In this document: positions 53,854-64,000 of the stretch, piece by piece
Layout: each line of letters begins with the position of its first letter
Numbering within the stretch: the stretch's first letter is position 1
From: Verrucomicrobiales bacterium
Lineage (GTDB): Bacteria > Verrucomicrobiota > Verrucomicrobiia > Limisphaerales > UBA9464
Length of the DNA stretch: 64,000 bases
Assembly (NCBI GenBank): GCA_027488845.1
Contig: JAIYBC010000025.1
Coordinates: 186,001-250,000 of the forward strand
Reading direction: 5' to 3'
The notes under the pieces: model-generated
What the model was told of the DNA's origin: nothing
What the model saw: the letters and a program-made list of their open reading frames with translations, nothing else
The model's database searches: none
Program-made: the position numbers and the translations under genes

Positions 53854-54190
53854 GGCGACCGTTCCGCTGCCTTCGCCCCCGCAGGCCAACCCCACCTCAC
53901 GCCGGACGGCCAAGAAACGGCGTGTGTAGCCGCGCACGACAGATGAGATGAATTCGCATCAAAATGAGAATTCCCGCCTCACCACCGTCCCGCTGGGCAA
54001 TGTAGCGCCAGCGTCTCCGGCGCTCGTCGCACCGGGTTCCTCCAGCATCCAAGGCCGGGATGGAAGCACCCTCCCGCTTCGCTCCATCGGCAGCCCTTGC
54101 ACGACCTCTCAATGCGGGCTGCCTGCAACGCTCCTGCAGGCGACCTGCGGAGCACCGACATCCGGCCGTATTGAATGCGCCAGCGCACAG
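53854..54190. other. Boundary region between host genes and prophage module
   Basis: 337 bp without a credible gene. A short AT-richer patch with two GAATTC sites (near 53949 and 53970) is followed by about 200 bp of atypical sequence (around 53990-54190) that looks like a repeat or decayed element. A possible 116-residue frame overlaps the phage gene and is not supported. Confidence 0.35.
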
Positions 54191-57100
54191 TCAGTCCTGA
54201 ATCGGAACCACCAGCGCGATGGCGTTGGTCTCAACTGGCAGGTAGCTGAGGGTGTTGGGGGCGCTGCTCTGGCTGCAGACCCCCGGATCGGTGCCTGACC
54301 AATAGGCTCCGGCAATGCTCTGGTAGCCCAACGGATCGGCCGAAACCACCCCCACGCTGGGCACCAGGCTGCAGGTCGTCTGGTTCACCGGGGTCGTCAC
54401 GCCCTGGGCAAGGTACGCCGAGCCGGTAATCCAGCGGCCGGTGGCGGACCGGCAGGTCATCCCATCCACGCTCGACGCCACCTGCTCAAAGCCTGTGTGG
54501 CTGACCGTCCGGGTCACCACCGCCAGCATCTTGGCGGCGCCGGCAGCAATCATGTCCGCCCACTCGGCGTTGAATGCCTGGACGGCATCGTCGGAGACGT
54601 ACCCCCAGCGGTACTCGTCGTCGCTGCGGGACGTCTGAACAGCCCAGTTGGACCCGTCGCAATCCCACACCGACGGCGTCGTCACCGTGTCCGCCCGGAA
54701 TGCCGCCGAGACAGAGCTGCCAGCCGCCACCCCATCCACCCAAGAGGCCGCGGTCAGGATGGTCGCGTCCGGCGGGACCCCCTTCCACACCACCCCAGCG
54801 CCGGCAGAGGATCCCGCAGTCGTGCTGCAGGGCGCCGGGGTGCCATCTCCGGTCGTCACGTCGGTCACCGTTCGATCCACCGTCCCCGTCAACGCCCGGG
54901 TCTGAAACTGGAACGGCACGACGATCCGGACCGAGACCAGGAGGTTCACGCAGGCGGCCATCTGGTTGAAGACCTCGCCGCTGGTCGGAATGGTCGGGAC
55001 CGGGCCGAATCCCGTCAGGAGATGGGTGCGCACCTCGTTGGCCAGATTGTGCTCAGTGGCCTTGGACGGCATGATGCCAATCTGACGGCCGCCGAACGCC
55101 TGAAAGCACAGGTTTTCAAAGGTGAAGTCGTAGAGACTGTCGATGCCGGTTTCGCACCCGTACTCGGCCGAGGTCTTGCCGTCGACCCACCCCTCGCAAC
55201 CCACCCGGATGGCCACCTCGGCGTGCAGCAGTGGATCGACGCTCAGGACCGTGGCGGTTTCGTCCGGATCCTCAGCGGTCGGCAGGTAGGGTTTCGGGAC
55301 CAGTTTGGTCCACAGCATGTGGGGAATGATGCATCCCACAAACCCCTCAGAGGCCGCCCACCCGTCCACCGACTGATCGCCCACTTTCAGGGTGGGCAGG
55401 TGAGCCCGTTGAGACCATGCGATGTACTGCCGGATGGCGTTGTCGTCGGTTCGGTACCCTTCGGCATCCAAGGCCGCCAAATCCCACCCGCTGGAATCCG
55501 CATCCACCGTCGCCGGGGCGTCTGGATGACTGCGGAACCGAGTCTTGAAGACCACCTTCACCACCTCCTCGCCGCCGAGGATCTCGAGGGCCGTGCTCTC
55601 GACCTCGTAGGGTTTCTCGTAGATCTGGCATGAGGAGTAGAACTGCGACCGCTCGTCCTCGCACGGCACGTCGCCGACCGTGCAGAGCCGACGGTTGGTG
55701 CCGATGACGTATCGGTAGCCACTCGGAGCCTCTGGAGCGATCCACACCTTGCTGTCCGCGCTGCCCAGATACAACGATTGGCCAGGCACAAAGTGCCGCT
55801 GCAGCTGAATCGGAGGCTGGGGCAACACGGGCGGAAACAGGTGGGCCCGTTCCGCGAACGGAAAGTGGTCGCCGTAGACCTCCGGCCGGAAAAGCGACGT
55901 GCTGCCGGGATGGATGTTCTTCCACTGCCACAGCATCACCCACTCGTTGGAGTACCCACCTGGGGGCGCGTCGGCGTAGATGCCCTCCCCCTCCTTAACC
56001 ACGGCCTCGCCAGACCACGCAGTTTCGCCATCGCGACCGGTGAATTGCTCACCGGCAGAGTACCACTTGTCGACGTACCACAGACGCCCGGATCGAACCT
56101 CGTAGATCCGCCCGGTCTGGACCTCGCCGTTGGCTACCGCCGCCGCTGATGGGGCAATGCCGTCCATCCAATCCCGGGCGCCCCGGCCGCTGACTCCCAG
56201 AGGAGTCCTCGAGAGCCAGAGCACCGACTTGCCGTCCTCGACGGCGTAGGCCCGGATCACGTGCCGATTCTGGATCCGGACCATCTTGGAAAACCGGCGG
56301 AACGCATCGGCCACGGCGTTGGTGTTCAGCTCCACGAACGAGCCCGGCAACCCCCGGCCGTCCAGGCTCACCAAGCACGCGTTCTCGAAGTACAGGTCGG
56401 ACAGAGTCCGAGCCGTGTCCTCGTAGAGCCCGGATCCGTCCAGGTTGCGGTCCAGATCCAGCTTCCCGCCGGCGATCCGCAGCAGCATCGCCCAGTCGTG
56501 GTGCCGAGGCTTGTACTCCAGCAGCTCGGCCACCTCGACGGCGACACCGGCACCGGCTGTCCGGGTGAACTGAGCCCCGTCAGGCGCACGCACAGTCAAC
56601 ACGCCGCGAGCCGGCTCCTCGAGCACCACGATGGCAGAGGCGCCTCCCATGGCCCCAGACGGGGTCAGAGTGACCGTCTGGATCACCTCGCCGTCCTCTA
56701 GGATCTCGACGCGGGTGTCGCCGGCCAGGTACCAGCCCCAGACCAGCGCCGCCGCGCCCACAAACCCGGGCGTGATCGAGTAGGGCGTTCCAATGCCTGC
56801 GTTCCCTTTCAAACGCGGGATGTTGGATGCCCGGAACAACGGATAAAGCCCCTCGATGGTGTCGCCCGATTGGGCTCCTCGAGCCGGCGCCAGCAAGTAC
56901 TGGCTTTCGAAGAACCGCGCGCTGTCGAATGCCGACTCGGTCCACGCCTTCTCGCCAGCCTCCTCTTCTGCCTGTTGGTCTGCCGTGCCGCGGAACTCGA
57001 CGGCAAAGGCGTTCAGCGAACGCTCGATGTGCCGGCCCCACGTCCTGCGCAGACGGCCGCCGCCCTTGTACGGACCCTCGATGTAGTCCGAGGTCGACAG

Positions 57101-57871
57101 GATGACGTCGGGCGCGTTCACCCGGATCACCCGGTAGTAGTCCGGATACGTGTGAACAACCAACACGTGCCCGTCCTCATCCGGGCAGGTACCTGGGAAA
57201 GTGACCATCGACAGCCCCTCCTTCAGCGGGGTGAAGAAGATCTCCAGATTGGCCGAGGCCACCGTGGTCGCGGTGCCGTCGCCGCAGTCGCCCTGGCTCA
57301 TCGGCTGCGGCATGAACCCGCCATAGGAATTGCCGTGGGGCGAGTAGGGATTCTGGGTCAATCCGTAGAAGGATCGAGCCGCGTCCAACGCCGGGGTGTA
57401 GGCCACGCCGGTGATCGGATCCACGGCGCCACGCTGCCGGCGGCCAAGGATCCATGCCTCGAGCGCGTTGGCGGGGCGGCCGGTGGGGAGACCGCCAACG
57501 GACTCCTCGGCCAAGCGCTGGTCCTCGGCCTCAATGTCGCCAACGCCGAACACGTAGGACCCCAGAAGCGAGGCCACGTTCGTTCCCTCCGGATTTCCGG
57601 GCCCCGCCTCCGGCCACGTGTACTCCGCTTCGGGCGGAACCGACTGGTAGAACTCGAAGAACTCTCCTTGGGAGGGCCAGACAAACCCGCTCGCGTCGGG
57701 ATTGCGGATCTGTCTGGCCCCTTGGAACCAGTAGTAGGGCAGGCGCCACGCCCAATCGCCCAATCCGGACCTAATGCGGGCGTTGATGCCGTTGGCCAGG
57801 CTGACCAGGTCGGTCGCCCGGATTTCGTCCCCCGGGGACACCAGGTGGACCCGAGGAAACGTGATCGCCAT
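54191..57871 (-). CDS. Phage large structural protein, likely tail tip or receptor-related
   Basis: 1226 residues, the largest protein in the window. No known family recognised. The N-terminus MAITFPRVHLVSPGDEIRATDL is followed by an even mixture of beta-rich segments, many Trp/Tyr and a Cys-containing C-terminus (DPGVCSQSSAPNTLSY). Position after the tape measure on the same strand fits a tail hub, tip or side fibre. No internal repeats obvious. Codon use is similar to the neighbouring phage genes. The start ATG 57871 lies 8 bp after the upstream stop. Confidence 0.7.
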   Translation of the reverse strand: MAITFPRVHLVSPGDEIRATDLVSLANGINARIRSGLGDWAWRLPYYWFQGARQIRNPDASGFVWPSQGEFFEFYQSVPPEAEYTWPEAGPGNPEGTNVASLLGSYVFGVGDIEAEDQRLAEESVGGLPTGRPANALEAWILGRRQRGAVDPITGVAYTPALDAARSFYGLTQNPYSPHGNSYGGFMPQPMSQGDCGDGTATTVASANLEIFFTPLKEGLSMVTFPGTCPDEDGHVLVVHTYPDYYRVIRVNAPDVILSTSDYIEGPYKGGGRLRRTWGRHIERSLNAFAVEFRGTADQQAEEEAGEKAWTESAFDSARFFESQYLLAPARGAQSGDTIEGLYPLFRASNIPRLKGNAGIGTPYSITPGFVGAAALVWGWYLAGDTRVEILEDGEVIQTVTLTPSGAMGGASAIVVLEEPARGVLTVRAPDGAQFTRTAGAGVAVEVAELLEYKPRHHDWAMLLRIAGGKLDLDRNLDGSGLYEDTARTLSDLYFENACLVSLDGRGLPGSFVELNTNAVADAFRRFSKMVRIQNRHVIRAYAVEDGKSVLWLSRTPLGVSGRGARDWMDGIAPSAAAVANGEVQTGRIYEVRSGRLWYVDKWYSAGEQFTGRDGETAWSGEAVVKEGEGIYADAPPGGYSNEWVMLWQWKNIHPGSTSLFRPEVYGDHFPFAERAHLFPPVLPQPPIQLQRHFVPGQSLYLGSADSKVWIAPEAPSGYRYVIGTNRRLCTVGDVPCEDERSQFYSSCQIYEKPYEVESTALEILGGEEVVKVVFKTRFRSHPDAPATVDADSSGWDLAALDAEGYRTDDNAIRQYIAWSQRAHLPTLKVGDQSVDGWAASEGFVGCIIPHMLWTKLVPKPYLPTAEDPDETATVLSVDPLLHAEVAIRVGCEGWVDGKTSAEYGCETGIDSLYDFTFENLCFQAFGGRQIGIMPSKATEHNLANEVRTHLLTGFGPVPTIPTSGEVFNQMAACVNLLVSVRIVVPFQFQTRALTGTVDRTVTDVTTGDGTPAPCSTTAGSSAGAGVVWKGVPPDATILTAASWVDGVAAGSSVSAAFRADTVTTPSVWDCDGSNWAVQTSRSDDEYRWGYVSDDAVQAFNAEWADMIAAGAAKMLAVVTRTVSHTGFEQVASSVDGMTCRSATGRWITGSAYLAQGVTTPVNQTTCSLVPSVGVVSADPLGYQSIAGAYWSGTDPGVCSQSSAPNTLSYLPVETNAIALVVPIQD

Positions 57872-57879
57872 GGGTCAGA

Positions 57880-58287
57880 TCAGGCGGGCTTGGCCTCGCA
57901 GGCAACCACCTCGACGTTGCAGGCGGCCGTATCAGCCTGCAGTCGGAGCTTCGGGTAGCCTCCCGACTGAGCCGGCATGCGCACCGGGCCCCAGGTCTCG
58001 GATGGGTAGATCCGGCCCACGTGGGTGTCGGTCGGCGTCGCATCTTTGCGGACGTAGATGTCCACGAAGTTGGTCGCGTCCTTGTTGGTGAACATGACCT
58101 TCTGCTGCTCGGTCAGCGTCAGATCCTGCATGTCAACATCCTCGGCCGAGGTGCCGACCGCCTGGACGTTCTTGAACGCCTTCAGTGCAGTCGTGTCGGG
58201 ATCCGTGCCTTGGGTCTTGGTGGTGTTGGAGGCCTCGATTCCCCCGTAGGAGAACTGGAACGTGACGTTGTTGGTGATGACAGCCAT
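57880..58287 (-). CDS. Small phage structural protein
   Basis: 135 residues. MAVITNNVTFQFSYGG start, then TTALKAFKNVQAVGTSAEDVDM, FVDIYVRKDATPTDTHVGRIYP and a C-terminal VVACEAKPA. Beta-rich and lacking hydrophobic segments, like tail or decoration proteins. Function not identified. It lies between the 65-residue gene and the tip gene, 33 bp and 8 bp away. Confidence 0.65.
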   Translation of the reverse strand: MAVITNNVTFQFSYGGIEASNTTKTQGTDPDTTALKAFKNVQAVGTSAEDVDMQDLTLTEQQKVMFTNKDATNFVDIYVRKDATPTDTHVGRIYPSETWGPVRMPAQSGGYPKLRLQADTAACNVEVVACEAKPA

Positions 58288-58320
58288 GTCGTGATTGGAT
58301 GGGATTCCTGAACGGGTGAA

Positions 58321-58518
58321 TCAGCGCCAACGCGGGATGGAATCGACCCCGGTGGAATTGCCTGAAGCGACCGAACGGCGGCCGCTCCGGAAAAGGGTGC
58401 CGCGGGGCCCGGCATAGGCCGGCGCGTCAGAACCGCGCAAAGGCGTTCCGCGATCGAAAGCAGCCTGCAGCTCGGTGATTGCCCGCGAGATCTTGCCCTT
58501 GGAGGTCAGGGTGGTCAT
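58321..58518 (-). CDS. Small phage protein coupled to the upstream tail gene
   Basis: 65 residues: MTTLTSKGKISRAITELQAA and a basic, Ser/Gly-rich C-terminus. Its start codon ATG at 58518-58516 overlaps the stop of the upstream 275-residue gene (ATGA at 58518-58515). The overlap is the main support that it is translated. Function unknown. Confidence 0.6.
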   Translation of the reverse strand: MTTLTSKGKISRAITELQAAFDRGTPLRGSDAPAYAGPRGTLFRSGRRSVASGNSTGVDSIPRWR

Positions 58519-59342
58519 TCGGCGATGGGAGCCCCGTAGCTCCACTGGTTGTAGTCCTGCGAGAATTCGTACATCTCCTCGACCAAGATCCGGGTGGCAT
58601 CTTGGGTCTTCACCCGAGGCGCGTTGATCAGCCAGTAGCCAACCGCCAGATCCCGCTCGATGCCCTCCTTGATGATGTCCGGCATGGATGGAAACCGGGC
58701 CAGCAAGGTCGACGTCGCGATGAAGCGGTTGAGGCCTCCAAACGCCGCGCGGATGGAACTGCCGGGAGGCGTGACCCGCTGGACCTTCAGCACCGGGATC
58801 TCGAACATGAACTCTTCGTCGCCGGCAGCCAGGCTGCTGGCCAGCTGGCGGAAGAGATCGACGGAGATCCCGAACTTGGCGGCCGCTGCCAAAACCGTCT
58901 CAAAGTCCAATGCCGTCTGGGTCGCGCGACCGGCCTCGGACACGTTCAGCACCACCCGCTCGCCACGAGCCAAGGCGGTGATGTCGGACCGGAACTGCGC
59001 CCGACCAGCAGGATCGGTGATCTTGGCCAGCTCTGCCTGGACATCCGGACGCAGCCAGTGGGACCGCTGCGCCTTGGCGTAGTCCAGCTCGTAGACGGTT
59101 ACCACCTGCTCATCAGGACTGGGTGAAGCACCGCCGGCGACAAGACCCGCCGACGGCGCCTCCATCAGGTGCCAAACGGCATCTTCTTGGCTGATCTTGA
59201 CCTTGCCGACGAACGTATCTGCCAACGCCTGAAGATCCTCCTGGAGACCTCTCCAGCGGCGGATGGTTGTCCACCGGCCGGCGTCATCCCGGTCGAAGAT
59301 CGGCGGCAGTTCCACCGGATCCGATGTTCCGTAGAGGGTCAT
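58515..59342 (-). CDS. Phage tail protein downstream of the tape measure
   Basis: 275 residues. DPVELPPIFDRDDAGRWTTI near the start, FGISVDLFRQLASSLAAGDEE and AVGYWLINAPRVKTQDATRI later. The order suggests a distal tail or minor tail protein, but no family was recognised. The start overlaps the tape measure stop (ATGA at 59342-59339) and the stop overlaps the next gene. Confidence 0.68.
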   Translation of the reverse strand: MTLYGTSDPVELPPIFDRDDAGRWTTIRRWRGLQEDLQALADTFVGKVKISQEDAVWHLMEAPSAGLVAGGASPSPDEQVVTVYELDYAKAQRSHWLRPDVQAELAKITDPAGRAQFRSDITALARGERVVLNVSEAGRATQTALDFETVLAAAAKFGISVDLFRQLASSLAAGDEEFMFEIPVLKVQRVTPPGSSIRAAFGGLNRFIATSTLLARFPSMPDIIKEGIERDLAVGYWLINAPRVKTQDATRILVEEMYEFSQDYNQWSYGAPIAE

Positions 59343-60511
59343 AGGCTCTCAGCGACCGCGCGGCCGATGGCGTTGGCGTCCGACTTCTCCAGCAGCGTCT
59401 GCACCTTGCGCAGCGTCTCGAGGCTCTGCTTTGGGATGTCGTTGGTGGCGTTGCCGGCGCCGAAGAAGTACCGACCCACACGGGTGAACTGGTCCGACGG
59501 ATTCATCGCAATCTGCGAGGTGGGTCCATTGCCCCCGGACGGAGCGGTCGATGTGGTCAGCTGGTTCAGCTCCGACATGCGGGCGGCCTGCCGCGAGATC
59601 TCCTGCTGCCGAAGCGGAGTGTTGGCCATGCCAAGGATCCGCTGGTCGGCGTCGGCGATCTCCTTCCGAAGGGCAAGGATCCGCTCCTGAACCGGCAGCT
59701 GGTCGCGGAGCGCCTTGTTGTAGGCCTCGGCGTTGGCGAGGCGGCGGCCCTCGACGTCTTGGGAGCGGCCATAGTTGGCCAGCGGCTCGAGGTCGGTCTT
59801 GAACTGGCCCCGAAAGTTCTCCAGCTCGGTGTTGCGACCCAGATCTCCGAACCGGCCGTCACCGATCGCCTTGATCGCGCTGGTGAACTCCGAGGCGGCC
59901 ATCTTTCCGCTGGATCCAGCCAAGTCGATCACCTGCCTGTTGCCGAAGAACCCGCCCACGGCGAACTCGTCGATGGCGCCACCCTCACGCTCTCCAACCA
60001 GCCTGCGGAACGCCTCGCGGGACCGGTTGTCGCCGCGGCCGGTCATGTTCTGGGCCAGCTCCTGGAACATCTGATCCGGCTCCATGTTCTTGATCTTCTC
60101 GAGGCTGAGCCCGAGGTCCTCGAAGGCGCGCACCGCTTCAGGCGATCCGGCAAGGGCGTCCGACCGGGCCTGCCGGAGGTTTCCGACGGCGTTGTTCACC
60201 GTGCCCTCTTCGACTCCCATGATCTTGGAGAGGTTGCGGTTGTACTTGGCCGACTCGGGATTGATGTTGAGTTCCTGAGCGGTCCGGGCGAGGTCGCGCG
60301 CCTCCTGGATCACCGACCGGATCTTGTCGACGGCGAACGACACGGCGCCGGCAATGCCACCGCCAACGAGGCCGCCCGTCAGGGCAGACCCGAGGCCCAT
60401 CGCCTCCTTCTTGAGTTCGTTCAGGCTCGCGGCGGCTGTCTTGGTCGACTGCCCCAGCTCGCGGGCGTCGCCCGTGATCCGCAGCCGGAATTCCTTGTCG
60501 GAGTTGGCCAT
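59339..60511 (-). CDS. Short tape-measure-like protein
   Basis: 390 residues. MANSDKEFRLRITGDARELG and TKTAAASLNELKKEAMGLGSALTG is the typical N-terminus of tail tape measure proteins. A Gly/Ala-rich hydrophobic patch (GGLVGGGIAGAVSFAV) follows near residue 47, then long predicted helices (EARDLARTAQELNINPESAKYN, QERILALRKEIADADQRIL). Tape measure length sets tail length; 390 residues would predict a short tail or a divided protein. It begins 2 bp after the upstream stop. Confidence 0.75.
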   Translation of the reverse strand: MANSDKEFRLRITGDARELGQSTKTAAASLNELKKEAMGLGSALTGGLVGGGIAGAVSFAVDKIRSVIQEARDLARTAQELNINPESAKYNRNLSKIMGVEEGTVNNAVGNLRQARSDALAGSPEAVRAFEDLGLSLEKIKNMEPDQMFQELAQNMTGRGDNRSREAFRRLVGEREGGAIDEFAVGGFFGNRQVIDLAGSSGKMAASEFTSAIKAIGDGRFGDLGRNTELENFRGQFKTDLEPLANYGRSQDVEGRRLANAEAYNKALRDQLPVQERILALRKEIADADQRILGMANTPLRQQEISRQAARMSELNQLTTSTAPSGGNGPTSQIAMNPSDQFTRVGRYFFGAGNATNDIPKQSLETLRKVQTLLEKSDANAIGRAVAESL

Positions 60512-60513
60512 GG

Positions 60514-61155
60514 TCAGGCTTTCCCTTTCTGGGCGGCGGCGACCAGATCCAGCACCGCCTGCGGATCGGCCTCGAACTGGCGGCGTTGCTCGCTGGCCGC
60601 GGCCGCAAACGCCTGAAACTCCTCACTCTCGACCTGCACATGGCCGTCCTGCTCCATCTGCATCGCGTAGAGCCAGTGAGCCGTTGCCAGCGGGGTGTTT
60701 AGCGCCTCCTCCACCGAGTTGCTGTAGTGCCGGCTCAACGTGGCAAGCAGCACTCCGTACCAGGGCGACCCAGACACCTCCCCCTCCGGCGTCCTCCTGA
60801 GCTTGATGGCCGGCTTCCGGTGAGCGGCGGCGATGTACCGGAACAGGGCCAGCCGATCCTGATCGAGGTAACCCAGCCGGGTCAGCCGCTTGTACCTGAG
60901 CCAGATTTTCTGCGGCAGCTGGTCGAGATCCCGCAACGCCACGGCCGCCGGCCGGGAGCAGACCCACGCGGCCACCAGCACGTCACCGAAACCGGGCATC
61001 CGCTGCTCTTCGGCCTTGTCCGGCGCGATGAAGGGCGAGCCGAGCCGACGCAGCAGCATTGCATGGCCAATGCTGAAGGGCTGCAACGCCACCCCAGCGG
61101 CAAACCACTGATCCGGCATCAGAGCCTCGCAGAATTGGTCGGTGACAGAGCTCAC
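60514..61155 (-). CDS. Phage tail-assembly chaperone-like protein
   Basis: 213 residues from GTG 61155, whose first base pairs overlap the stop of the 52-residue gene (GTGA). PDQWFAAGVALQPFSIGHAMLL, IWLRYKRLTRLGYLDQDRLAL, and a Gln/Ala-rich C-terminus (EEFQAFAAAASEQRRQFEAD) are seen. Position just before the tape measure is where tail assembly chaperones normally sit. No frameshift site was identified. An upstream TTG start at 61179 is less likely. Confidence 0.68.
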   Translation of the reverse strand: MSSVTDQFCEALMPDQWFAAGVALQPFSIGHAMLLRRLGSPFIAPDKAEEQRMPGFGDVLVAAWVCSRPAAVALRDLDQLPQKIWLRYKRLTRLGYLDQDRLALFRYIAAAHRKPAIKLRRTPEGEVSGSPWYGVLLATLSRHYSNSVEEALNTPLATAHWLYAMQMEQDGHVQVESEEFQAFAAAASEQRRQFEADPQAVLDLVAAAQKGKA

Positions 61156-61310
61156 GACAGGTACAGACCGGCGCTCCAAACAAACAGCGTGACCCGGATT
61201 CCCCAGTAGGGTTCGGCGCAGTGCTCACACTCGCACCTGCCGACCACGCCGATCACGACGCTTGGCAGCAGGTGAAGCTCCTCAACGTGCGTTTCGAAAA
61301 AGCCCCTCAC
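61152..61310 (-). CDS. 52-residue phage protein with CxC-x2-C motif (short gene)
   Basis: GTG start at 61310, stop at 61152. The start overlaps the TGA of the upstream tail-tube-like gene (GTGA at 61310-61307), and its TGA overlaps the GTG of the next gene (61155-61152). The sequence includes VIGVVGRCECEHCAEPYWGI, a possible metal-binding cysteine group, and a hydrophobic C-terminal WSAGLYLS. Double coupling in a dense operon makes it very likely real. Function unknown; many phages carry a small chaperone-associated protein at this position. Confidence 0.75.
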   Translation of the reverse strand: MRGFFETHVEELHLLPSVVIGVVGRCECEHCAEPYWGIRVTLFVWSAGLYLS

Positions 61311-61753
61311 GAGATGGCGGCGTGGTGGGTCGGGTTGCCGTCCGAATCGACCGTGTTGGCGCGGCGCAAGGTCAACCGCAGCGCCATGCCGGCAGTCGTC
61401 GACGGAGTGACTTGGGCGTCGCCGTCGTAGTTCCAGCTGCCGTTGAGTGCAGCCAGCGGCATCGAGGCCAACGTGACCGTGGCACCGGGAGCCGGGATCG
61501 GCGTTGCACCCGCAGCGATCGCCACCGGCTGGCCACCGGACACGGTGGACGTCGGCACGAACTCAATCTCGAGGGTGTCGATCGGCCGGCCGTAGCCGAC
61601 GGCGGACACGTCGCCCTGTCCATCGGTCTGCTGCGCCTTGGGCGTGGTGCGCCGATGGCTCCAGGTGTTCAGGGTGCGGGCAGTACCGACGACGGTGGCA
61701 GCGCCATTGACGCCGAGGAAGACGGCCGTGCCGTATTGGGTGAATGCACTCAT
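61307..61753 (-). CDS. Phage tail-tube or major tail protein-like
   Basis: 148 residues. MSAFTQYGTAVFLGVNGAAT, VVGTARTLNTWSHRRTTPKA, RPIDTLEIEFVPTSTVSGG and PLAALNGSWNYDGDAQVTPS form a beta-rich single domain as expected of a tail tube subunit. The motif is short and the family was not recognised. It overlaps the completion protein start (ATGA at 61753-61750) and is followed by the 52-residue gene. Confidence 0.65.
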   Translation of the reverse strand: MSAFTQYGTAVFLGVNGAATVVGTARTLNTWSHRRTTPKAQQTDGQGDVSAVGYGRPIDTLEIEFVPTSTVSGGQPVAIAAGATPIPAPGATVTLASMPLAALNGSWNYDGDAQVTPSTTAGMALRLTLRRANTVDSDGNPTHHAAIS

Positions 61754-62214
61754 GGGAGTTGGGTGACGGTTTCAAAGACGACCTCCCACACGAGGAGTTC
61801 GCCGGTGTTGGTGACTAGGGACAACTGGTCGCCACGCTCCGGGGCTTCGAGCGTGGAAAAGGTTTCGGGAGCCCATCCCGAGAGGTCGATCAGCAGCTGC
61901 AGGGCTACGTCGCCGGAATCCTGCTGCGTGCCCCGCGGCCCGCGGTTCATGGCGATGTTCTCGCTGACCTGAAGAATCACGCGGACGATCAGCGTCTTGG
62001 CCTGAGCCATCCGGTACCGGCAGCTGACGGCCACGCACATGCCAGACCCGCCTTCGCCGGTGCTACGGCGCAGCGCCTGGTTGATCTTGGAGACGAGGTC
62101 CCGATCGTAGTCGCCGATGACGGCCGCCGAGGGCGGATCCGCGATGTAGCTCAACCCGCCGATCTTCTCGATCAGCGCGTCCATCAGTCTGGAACGAAGG
62201 GTTGGCTCGGACAT
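61750..62214 (-). CDS. Phage tail completion/terminator-like protein
   Basis: 154 residues. MSEPTLRSRLMDALIEKIGGL ... YDRDLVSKINQALRR ... LIVRVILQVSENIAMNRG ... LVTNTGELLVWEVVFETVTQL resembles the small alpha/beta proteins that cap phage tails (Gp37-like/minor tail). Position between the virion morphogenesis gene and the tail tube supports it. The end overlaps the tail-tube-like gene by 4 bases. Confidence 0.66.
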   Translation of the reverse strand: MSEPTLRSRLMDALIEKIGGLSYIADPPSAAVIGDYDRDLVSKINQALRRSTGEGGSGMCVAVSCRYRMAQAKTLIVRVILQVSENIAMNRGPRGTQQDSGDVALQLLIDLSGWAPETFSTLEAPERGDQLSLVTNTGELLVWEVVFETVTQLP

Positions 62215-62283
62215 CGCACCGAAGGATGCCTGAACCGAATCACCGCCTCCCGTTCGCGGGGAACAGCGAGGGATGTGTGAAGG

Positions 62284-62823
62284 CTAAAGAGGGATCTCCC
62301 GAATAGCCCGGACCGCGCTGTCGAGCAGTCGTCCGGATGGCGGCAGCGCATTGGGATCCGCTGGGAGCACGGCCTGCCTGACGAGCCTGTAGACCACCAT
62401 TGCCTCGGGGCCTTCGGTCACCAACGCCGGCCCCACCCCATCGACGATGGCAAACTGCAAGCCATCGAACTCCCCGGCGCGCTTGCCGTAGGCCGCGGCG
62501 ATGGCCGGGATGGTGAGATACTTGCCTTTGACCGGCTTGATCGTGGCGCCGAGCACCTTCGCCCGCATCGGGTACGGGAACACCAGGGTGACGCCATTGG
62601 AGTCGACCTCCTGCCGCGTTCCGCGGGCGATTTGCTCCCAGAAGTGCTGTTTGGGGAACCCGGTCTTGTTGGGTTCCTGATCGCGCGCTGCCAGGTGGGC
62701 CTGCGCCTCGTCAAACACTGCGGCACCGATGGCCTCGTAGACTGGAAGAGATCCGTACCGCTCAACCACCGTGGTGAAAAGGCCGCTGGGATCCGGTGGG
62801 GTCGATTGGACGGCAAAAGCCAT
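62284..62823 (-). CDS. Phage virion morphogenesis-like or head-tail joining protein
   Basis: 179 residues. PSGLFTTVVERYGSLPVYEA, AVFDEAQAHLAARDQEPNKTGFPKQHFWEQIARGTRQEVDSNGVTLVFPYPMRAKVLGATIKPVKGKYLTIPA is like phage virion morphogenesis (Mu gpG/HK97 gp10) proteins at the head-tail junction. Starts 2 bp after the head morphogenesis gene stop and is followed by a 69-bp gap. Confidence 0.7.
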   Translation of the reverse strand: MAFAVQSTPPDPSGLFTTVVERYGSLPVYEAIGAAVFDEAQAHLAARDQEPNKTGFPKQHFWEQIARGTRQEVDSNGVTLVFPYPMRAKVLGATIKPVKGKYLTIPAIAAAYGKRAGEFDGLQFAIVDGVGPALVTEGPEAMVVYRLVRQAVLPADPNALPPSGRLLDSAVRAIREIPL

Positions 62824-62825
62824 GG

Positions 62826-63704
62826 TCAGATTGCCTCGAGGATGCCGTCGTCGTTGACCTGGAACTCGGACTGCAGTCCCTGCTCAAGGACCTCCTGCAG
62901 TCGACGGGCCAGCTCAGCATCCCAGTCCGAGACGTTGGCGGCGACGCTGTCGTCCAGGCCGAACTCCTGACGGGGATCCGAAACCCTCTGCTCGGGCTGA
63001 ATCAGACCCAGCCGGACGCATTCACGGCGGCCGATGTTCTGAACCCCCATCCCGGAGTTGAAGTCGAAGGGCGGCCACGGAGTGCCGAAGCGGCTGATCT
63101 TTGACCAGACCTCCGAATCCTTCAGCGCAATCATCCGGCCGCTGTAGATCTCGCCGCCGGCAGCCCGCCACCGGTCTTCCCAGTAGCGGGGATTGACCTC
63201 GACCACCTGCCCCTGGCGGACCTCCGAACCCCTTGGCACCCGCCGCATGAACTGGCGGAAGAGTTCCTGGGCTGGAAACGCCAGGCGCGCACCGTCGGAG
63301 TTGGTCCGGGTCCATTGCCCGTACCCCTGCGCCATGCGCGTCTGCGTTTCGATGATCAGGTTGAGTCGAGCGTCGGACCGCAGATCCTGAATCCCGCCCT
63401 CGGCGCCGGCGCCGGGCTGGTAGGAGGACCGGGCGATCAGCTCCTTGAGGCGCAGACGCACCGTGGCCTGGTCGAGGCCCTGCCCGGGACCGTCGGAGAT
63501 GCCGCGTGCCAGCTGGGCCAGCTGGTCTTGAACGTCCTGTAGCAGACCGGCCTCGGTGATCCGGGCGGACAGGAACGAGGCCCGCCGGATCTCTGCCGGG
63601 ATCGACTCCAGCTCGCGGCTGGAAAGAGAAGTTGGCAGCACCCCACGCCGGCGCGCCCACTCGACGGCGTCCCGGAACTCCATGGGGTTGGCTGGAAGGG
63701 GCAT
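62826..63704 (-). CDS. Phage head morphogenesis protein (Mu gpF/SPP1 gp7-like)
   Basis: 292 residues. An N-terminal helical part (PMEFRDAVEWARRRGV) precedes the characteristic C-terminal block WPPFDFNSGMGVQNIGRREC and VRLGLIQPEQ. Members of this family assist prohead assembly and are found next to portal genes. The portal and capsid genes would lie to the right, beyond the window edge. A 3-bp gap separates it from the 95-residue gene. Confidence 0.78.
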   Translation of the reverse strand: MPLPANPMEFRDAVEWARRRGVLPTSLSSRELESIPAEIRRASFLSARITEAGLLQDVQDQLAQLARGISDGPGQGLDQATVRLRLKELIARSSYQPGAGAEGGIQDLRSDARLNLIIETQTRMAQGYGQWTRTNSDGARLAFPAQELFRQFMRRVPRGSEVRQGQVVEVNPRYWEDRWRAAGGEIYSGRMIALKDSEVWSKISRFGTPWPPFDFNSGMGVQNIGRRECVRLGLIQPEQRVSDPRQEFGLDDSVAANVSDWDAELARRLQEVLEQGLQSEFQVNDDGILEAI

Positions 63705-63707
63705 CGC

Positions 63708-63995
63708 CTACGGGGCGTTCGTTAAAATCGTCGGCATGGCAGCTCTCAATTCCTCTCGGACCAGCACCAGCGACGGCGAGATGTTGGTCGCCTGAGCCCA
63801 AGGCAATCGCACAGAACGAAGCTCCTTGAACGACGTAGGCTTCCCATCAACGCGGACAACTTCCTCGTACATGGACGACACCGTGATCTCACCGGTGGCT
63901 GGGTCCGCGTCGAAAACAAAGCGACGCCATTCGCGGGTTTTGATTTCAACCACGGTACGCGTGGTGGTCGATACTGTGATAGCGTCATCCGGCAC
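63708..63995 (-). CDS. Small phage protein, start uncertain at window edge
   Basis: 95 residues from a GTG at 63995. VVEIKTREWRRFVFDADPATGEITVSSMYEEVVRVDGKP suggests a small beta-rich protein. No upstream stop is visible in the five remaining bases, so the true start may lie beyond the window. Function unknown; position next to the head morphogenesis gene. Confidence 0.55.
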   Translation of the reverse strand: MPDDAITVSTTTRTVVEIKTREWRRFVFDADPATGEITVSSMYEEVVRVDGKPTSFKELRSVRLPWAQATNISPSLVLVREELRAAMPTILTNAP

Positions 63996-64000
63996 TTGAG

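Follow-up and report, generated by a model that had tools for sequence, protein, structure and literature searches.

The genes crowded onto the minus strand at the right-hand end of this stretch raise the question of what kind of element they belong to. The window, the whole stretch of DNA analysed, is 64 kb long (C25:186001-250000 of a 5.39-Mb, 69-contig assembly; position on contig C25 = window position + 186,000). The contig runs 42 kb past the window and was read to its end; positions above 64,000 lie beyond the window and keep the same numbering. We conclude, with a probability of about 0.93, that the genes at 54,191-64,000 form the tail end of a complete-looking, 39,023-bp Mu-like transposable prophage. 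The prophage (53,925-92,947) is intergenic and flanked by two host genes, in a chromosome that is probably verrucomicrobial, judging by the labels of related metagenome-assembled genomes; roughly its tail quarter lies inside the window, and its transposase gene begins 19.5 kb past it. The original prediction, made from the window, had read the block as the structural module of an undescribed tailed prophage, with a left boundary near 53.9-54.2 kb and the remainder to the right. Each of these points was borne out: terminase, portal, protease and capsid genes lie in the flanking contig, the true end falls at 53,924/53,925, and the element continues through 64,044-92,947.

The element is bounded by a transposition scar

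The ends of the element comprise the following features.

53920..53924, no strand: left copy of the target-site duplication GCGTG, single at the empty site in three same-genus genomes
53925..53971, plus strand: tail-side terminus, TG end (attR-like); candidate transposase-binding repeats, both degenerate, occur at offsets 17 and 38
92,799-92,947, beyond the window: early-side terminus (attL-like) with three repeats
92,948-92,952, beyond the window: right copy of the target repeat GCGTG

Phage Mu has TG...CA ends and makes a 5-bp target repeat. The termini of the prophage likewise read TG...CA, and GCGTG is the 5-bp target repeat. Scanning the flanks for TG...CA ends with a direct repeat returned four pairs, of which two had 5-bp and two had 4-bp repeats, and none with a 6-bp repeat; empty sites decided the choice among them. 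Part of the adjacent host gene served as query against 19 genomes of the same genus, own among them. It returned 18 loci, the own one and those of 17 of 18 congeners, and the flanks were compared with these by blastn. In three congeners (G013, G012 and G005) both flanks join at one GCGTG, the empty site, at 91-92% identity. With these results, we conclude that the insertion postdates the split from the three congeners that keep the empty site. The accepted pair matches at 16 of 25 inverted terminal bases, a value equalled by 31 of 200,000 random 25-mer pairs; among 2000 pairs of windows drawn at random from the contig, two combined TG/CA, a 5-bp repeat and a terminal match of at least 16/25.

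Three copies of the repeat AGATGAGAAT/-A are present near the early end, at offsets 17, 100 and 140; these and the two degenerate ones near the tail end (offsets 17 and 38) are putative transposase sites. A scan of Mu with its site consensus placed sites at offsets 6 and 151 on the left and 6, 28 and ~56 on the right, plus two weak matches, with Mu L2 below the scan threshold. The mean G+C content was ~0.65 for ten 1-kb windows at 54-64 kb and ~0.70 for six at 48-54 kb.

Head and transposition genes are of the Mu type

Beyond the window the late strand carries head and packaging genes, which we identified by matches to Pfam and PHROGs.

69,117-70,145, minus strand: major head protein (PHROG_1005, E 7e-8)
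70,232-70,873, minus strand: cement protein with a hydrophobic N-terminus (PF09956, E 1.2e-6; PHROG_673 'head scaffolding', E 1e-8)
71,221-72,510, minus strand: Mu I-type protease (PF10123, E 5e-15; PHROG_328, E 7e-23)
72,513 to ~74,000, start not fixed, minus strand: gp29-type portal (PHROG_113, E 7e-36)
74,407-76,533, minus strand: terminase large subunit (PHROG_675, E 1.5e-21)

The element thus holds the Mu-type head genes for protease I, gp29 portal and terminase. By tblastn the portal matched 30 phage records, the 20 listed being 21-26% identical. At ~82.6 kb the coding strand switches, and the early genes run divergently from the late genes, towards the attL-like end. The early operon includes a 291-amino-acid (aa) gene without a family and the following genes.

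83,492-85,561, plus strand: transposase (PHROG_310, E 3e-14; no Pfam family)
85,583-86,791, plus strand: MuB/TniB-like ATPase, adjoining the transposase (PHROG_296, E 8e-22; TniB PF05621, E 3e-11)
87,785-88,333, plus strand: Mu Gam (PF07352, E 2e-29)
91,415-92,251, plus strand: D12 adenine methyltransferase (PF02086, E 2e-22)
92260-92787: 175-aa protein encoded by the final early gene, beside the attL-like end (no Pfam or PHROG family)

The 175-aa protein was matched near the same end in four relatives (G099, G100, G105 and G102) and weakly in a fifth (G196). Among the scanned early proteins, with small early open reading frames (ORFs) scanned in part, no match to GemA or Mor/C was found. Extension of the sequence had been expected to uncover terminase, portal, capsid and integrase genes; the first three were found, and no tyrosine or serine recombinase was detected among the products scanned against Pfam and PHROGs. 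In place of an integrase-type prophage, the marks are those of Mu: a MuA-like transposase (TnpA), a MuB-like ATPase, Gam, TG/CA ends and the 5-bp repeat, and therefore no site-specific integrase is needed. Taken together, we conclude that the element is a transposable phage by its ends, its transposition genes and its head genes, and that it is set apart by the active site of its transposase.

The transposase family carries a D-E-E triad

DDE recombinases, which include transposases and retroviral integrases, are described as requiring two aspartates and one glutamate, and changing aspartate to glutamate at triad positions generally cripples the enzymes studied. In an alignment of 10 members of the transposase family, D190, D191, E267 and E322 were invariant. 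A joint alignment gave the triad as D/E/E in 33 of 33 family members versus D/D/E in 9 of 9 classical transposable phages (Mu, Mushu, D3112, martha, Mwe-Yong, ThpS-P1, RR1-B, Kp4866-3 and POA1180); two sequences, L072 and L073, which duplicate the homologue L033 and the element's own protein, had been removed before the count of 33. The tree of this alignment placed the family on one branch with a support of 0.96; when rooted, it kept the family as one group and did not recover the classical set as one, a result that depends on the root. Comparison by hhalign of the family profile (31 of 35 family rows) with the nine classical transposases gave E 6e-23 and a probability of 99.5, and paired E267 with D336 of MuA. 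The second triad position was also a glutamate in 55 of 55 IMG/VR loci, which represent 50 distinct proteins, some shared with the 33; two of the 55 stop short of D190. Thirty-nine of the 55 had no match to the one search pattern, of three, that contains E267 and were reached via the other two.

An AlphaFold2 model of L033 (mean predicted local distance difference test score, pLDDT, 61; predicted template modelling score 0.44) places the aspartate pair in the strand at 192-199 and E331 (equivalent to E322) in the helix at 325-342. The residue equivalent to E267, E277, stands directly after the strand at 272-276, which follows the helix at 245-265, and this is the expected place of the second aspartate. 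Against the MuA core structures 1bcm and 1bco the model scored Z 12.2, with root-mean-square deviations of 5.9 and 5.3 over 265 and 246 residues, and Foldseek returned template modelling scores by target length of 0.51-0.55. TnsB scored Z 12.0, and IstA and the retroviral integrases scored lower (Z <=10.2). Judged by this model, the transposase family has the MuA fold.

We conclude that the D-E-E triad is established as sequence. The triad is fixed across the branch and the element has left a transposition scar, which together suggest an enzyme that works with D-E-E. Because the change, glutamate for the second aspartate, occurs within the fold, we regard the element as a variant rather than a plain Mu-like member. 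A literature search found no published report of a D-E-E transposase, although its terms were narrow and the negative is weak evidence that none exists. With a large family found in nature that has glutamate at the second position, the two-aspartate rule could be tested directly and the compensating changes revealed.

Alternative explanations

Several observations weigh against the reading of the locus as a complete Mu-like prophage with a D-E-E transposase, and we consider each with the explanation that it favors. The first explanation is that E267 is not a metal ligand, the site being formed by D190 or D191 with E322 and another residue, or that the alignment is shifted. D191 beside D190 is kept as well, in 53 of the 53 IMG/VR loci that reach it, and given this conservation a residue other than E267 may bind the metal. 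In addition, the structural model, moderate in confidence, is that of a homologue 38-39% identical to the transposase. When the profile was compared with MuA alone the motif came out two residues out of register, and the comparison with Mushu alone stopped short of the motif. In contrast, the multi-sequence profile pairs E267 with the MuA aspartate, and the comparison with D3112 alone, a weak match, pairs it with the aspartate of the D3112 DNG motif. The joint alignment sets E267 against an aspartate in all nine classical enzymes, and E267 is invariant and follows the strand where the second aspartate is expected. On balance, we consider it unlikely that E267 is not the metal ligand or that the alignment is shifted.

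A second explanation is that the prophage, although Mu-like, has by now become defective or been domesticated in part, as a tail-like particle or a remnant would be. No repressor, Mor/C-type activator or endolysin was recognised among the scanned proteins, with small ORFs covered in part. Several late genes have no family, and the gpF, tail-tube, tail-terminator and chaperone assignments given below are weak or positional. However, the element retains both ends, the terminase, portal, protease, capsid and tape-measure genes and the transposition genes, all as open frames, and it inserted later than the split from the three congeners with the empty site. Decay of the prophage is therefore improbable. 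As for the scar itself, short repeats are common, as the second 5-bp pair and the two 4-bp pairs from the flank scan illustrate, and the left flank was unmatched by blastn in 14 of the 17 congener loci, which are uninformative, the empty site being seen in 3 of 17 only.

Far less credible is an ordinary lambda-type prophage integrating by a tyrosine or serine recombinase: it would share the head-to-tail gene order common to tailed phages generally, but the exact bounds are known and no integrase match lies among the products scanned, the early genes encode a transposase, a MuB-like ATPase and Gam, and the TG/CA ends with their 5-bp target repeat form a transposition scar, on which a site-specific prophage was rejected. 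A contractile secretion system was set aside in view of the terminase, portal, protease and capsid genes. Such a system is also not indicated by the late proteins scanned against Pfam and PHROGs, which gave no match to a sheath or baseplate family; these proteins are divergent, and absence is not proof.

A potential model for the complete-looking Mu-like prophage is as follows. The transposase would bind the repeats near each end, synapse them, and cut and join with a 5-bp stagger at targets picked by the ATPase. Transposition would first lysogenise and later replicate the phage, the terminase would then package from integrated copies, and the resulting particles would have a short non-contractile tail. 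The transposase comes from a separate branch, whose second catalytic carboxylate would be a glutamate (D-E-E) and not an aspartate (D-D-E).

The transposase family is common in the phylum

A search of 96 genomes (own included) returned a good transposase relative in G059, which is of the same order, and weak partial matches in two others. With a two-sequence profile we found three named contigs, from metagenome-assembled genomes (MAGs) labelled Lentisphaerae, Pedosphaera and Kiritimatiellae, and seven IMG/VR contigs. Of the phylum's 387 genomes, 43, own among them, were matched by a 10-sequence profile, although a few of these matches are partial or weak; in the high-quality subset the count was 39 of 311. 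The single-sequence scan of IMG/VR with the transposase found no relatives, whereas alignment queries did, and tblastn with two family transposases against 50,697 phage records gave no match. The family is common in the phylum and might be developed into transposon tools for bacteria in which genetic methods are scarce.

Comparison with known transposable phages

Escherichia phage Mu (Muvirus) and the element have in common TG...CA ends, a 5-bp target repeat, repeats near both termini, a MuA-fold transposase, a MuB-like ATPase, Gam, an I-type protease and a gp29-type portal. The element differs from Mu in its D-E-E triad, in an early operon that runs divergently from the late genes towards the attL-like end, and in F/G-like genes placed downstream of the major head gene; it also lacks a sheath, baseplate or Gin-type match among the proteins scanned. 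Pseudomonas phage D3112 and Thiobacimonas phage vB_ThpS-P1 resemble the element in having Mu-type head genes and no annotated sheath, but their transposases are D-D-E and nearly all their genes are co-oriented. A ParB-like gene stands just before the transposase in vB_ThpS-P1, where the element has its 291-aa gene, a likeness by position only. The portal of Pelagibaca phage vB_PeaS-P1 is similar to that of the element at 25%.

We found the early and late genes to be divergent in 12 of 13 elements that show both a late marker and a transposase (divergent: own, G059, L033, G099, G100, G102, G103, G104, G105, G126, G487 and G196; colinear: G129), with G059 and L033 each oriented by one weak late marker. 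Three loci stand outside this count: L034 and L035, which show no late marker, and the G096 portal contig, which shows no transposase and has its ATPase and portal genes on opposite strands. Two elements from the same genus differ in layout, G126 (L097-L099) being divergent and G129 (L106-L108) colinear as in Mu, and therefore the orientation of the early block changed within the family. An early block inverted or divergent relative to the capsid and tail genes is also described for Burkholderia phage KS10, which differs in that its capsid genes are split (PMC2628397). Microcystis phage Mwe-Yong1112-1 has the same arrangement by its annotation, but carries an annotated integrase and a D-D-E transposase. 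Because the divergent layout occurs in 12 of 13 elements rather than in all, and KS10 and Mwe-Yong offer parallels, it was not retained as a novel trait.

Transposable prophages of Leptospira, according to the accessible text on them, are likewise ~38 kb long with a tail module at the end and carry a MuA-like TnpA with an ATPase and Gam and no Mor/C; they differ in having 6-bp repeats, partly TA-TA ends and a TnpA predicted to be D-D-E (PMC8705779). For the verrucomicrobial MAG 'Ca. Marcellius' a degraded prophage is reported that encodes a large terminase and two proteins of Mu type; the portion of that source available describes it as being without integration and propagation genes and analyses neither a transposase nor ends (PMC6920513). 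The likeness is by description only, and from this report Mu-like phage genes in the phylum appear not to be new as such. For phages of Akkermansia muciniphila YL44 the available text describes a pac-type potential for lateral transduction, and the term Mu-like is absent from the main text as available (PMC8008629). Nothing bearing on this question came from PMC9241678 or PMC8597652.

Tail-side genes within the window

The block at 54,191-64,043, on the minus strand, consists of tightly packed ORFs on one strand, as had been predicted, although they number 12 and not eleven. Their products are, in order, 1226, 135, 74, 275, 390, 221, 52, 148, 154, 179, 292 and 111 aa long, and the family libraries recognise only the tape measure, a weak tail terminator and a weak minor-head match.

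54191..57871, minus strand: 1226-aa orphan, the last tail gene, without a convincing relative
57880..58287, minus strand: 135-aa tail-region protein, no family in Pfam or PHROGs
58321..58545, minus strand: 74-aa ORF
58515..59342, minus strand: 275-aa tail-region protein after the tape measure, without a match
59339..60511, minus strand: short tape-measure protein, 390 aa (PHROG_9483, E 9.6e-11; PHROG_8462, E 6.8e-9)
60514..61179, minus strand: 221-aa protein between the tube candidate and the tape measure, in what would be the chaperone position; no family
61307..61753, minus strand: 148-aa candidate tail-tube protein, by position only; no family
61750..62214, minus strand: 154-aa tail terminator candidate (PF23840, Phage_tail_terminator, E 3.7e-4, below the curated cut-off)
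62284..62823, minus strand: 179-aa protein in a gpG-like position, kept in relatives; no Pfam or PHROG match
62826..63704, minus strand: 292-aa gpF-like minor head protein, kept in relatives (PHROG_220, E 5e-4)
63708..64043, ending 43 bp past the window, minus strand: 111-aa protein with a signal-peptide-like N-terminus, by heuristic

The PHROG_9483 match agrees with the tape measure of 390 residues that had been called from the window. A Mu gpF/SPP1 gp7-like head protein had also been called, and this claim is weakly supported: PHROG_220 ('minor head protein and DNA pilot') matches the 292-aa product weakly, but Pfam PF04233 has no match in the whole own genome. The gpF-like proteins of five relatives matched no Pfam family; two of the five matched a minor-head PHROG (E 2e-6 and 3e-6) and three matched none. 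The 292-aa gene adjoins the 179-aa gene in relatives too, and the 179-aa protein was matched by phmmer or profile in G099, G105, G102, G487, G196 and G126. The tape measure is 390 aa long and would therefore specify a short tail, of ~60 nm at 0.15 nm per residue; the tail would be non-contractile.

The 1226-aa protein, described from the window as unique, remained an orphan at the sensitivity used. It matched no Pfam family, no phage record by tblastn, and one PHROG of unknown function at E 0.005; a single-sequence scan of IMG/VR, which finds close relatives only, returned nothing. In 387 genomes of the phylum there were, besides the protein itself, two partial matches (E 4e-4 and 8e-4), and a search of PDB sequences gave nothing useful (three matches at E ~0.4). 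Single-sequence AlphaFold prediction of residues 31-1226 gave a pLDDT of 31.8 and no usable fold. From its position, the protein is probably a tail-tip or receptor protein. It contains 16 cysteines; for a tail put together in the cytoplasm, disulphide bonds would be unexpected. In two relatives (G099 and G100) one gene, of 596 and 624 aa respectively, lies between the tape-measure candidate, assigned by position and without a PHROG match, and the end of the late block; minimal tail tips may therefore be common in these phages.

Signal-peptide-like proteins in the structural block

The gene next to the tail block encodes a second large protein.

64,050-68,264, minus strand: 1404-aa protein with a signal-peptide-like start and a sialidase-type (BNR) and LamG-like segment

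After the signal-peptide-like start, this protein has fibre-like sequence and a fibre-like C-terminus, 'fibre-like' being a reading by motifs. Residues 339-1098 are 34% identical to proteins of two other genomes of the phylum, and residues 334-730 match more. Five such matching proteins were scanned, and four contained BNR_2, one of these also Laminin_G; the 1404-aa protein itself matched only a beta-propeller model, below the cut-off, and nothing useful among PDB sequences.

We called signal peptides by a heuristic of hydrophobicity, charge and cleavage, with late-block limits set by hand. Positives numbered 27 among 173 late-strand ORFs of the element and nine relatives, versus 1 among 132 in six control transposable phages (Mu, Mushu, D3112, RR1-B, ThpS-P1 and Mwe-Yong). 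Inspection by eye left about 9 of these 27 calls in doubt, among them the element's own protease and major head protein. Good cases occurred in 8 of the 10 elements (own, G099, G100, G102, G103, G104, G487 and G196), while G105 had none and G126 one doubtful case only. Domains in the G100 proteins of this type include an M14 carboxypeptidase, a beta-helix start, LamG and Ig.

Signal peptides within the structural operon of a tailed phage raise the question of why a phage would export fibre-like proteins. Our best guess is that these are late-expressed, exported proteins that bind surfaces or cleave glycans, for example receptor-destroying enzymes that free progeny from debris. Alternatively, they may be displayed on lysogens or attach to virions at lysis. 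We regard as evenly balanced the broader proposal that a phylum-wide branch transposes with a natural D-E-E site, the second aspartate having been replaced once and fixed, and has virions built with or accompanied by Sec-exported fibre-like, glycan-active proteins.

Other features of the element and its flank

Further along the late strand lies a gene of the Pam3 gp28 family.

77,908-78,411, minus strand: holin (PF23987, E 4e-19)

The holin ORF runs on into a lipobox-like LLLSGCGS, as if a holin and a lipoprotein (spanin-like) part were fused. Within the late strand, 78586-79948 holds a pair of genes of low G+C, for a 158-aa membrane-type protein and a DUF6731 protein (PF20505, E 9e-16); the G+C content is 0.54 in the 79-80 kb window and 0.62-0.67 in its neighbours. 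The pair is possibly passenger cargo. In a PADLOC run on 10 proteins the methyltransferase was the sole match, and the DUF6731 pair was unmatched. The host gene to the right of the element (93022-96138) belongs to a large paralogous family: the first 326 residues of its product had 42 matches in the own genome and 29-80 in each of the 18 congeners, at E up to 0.001.

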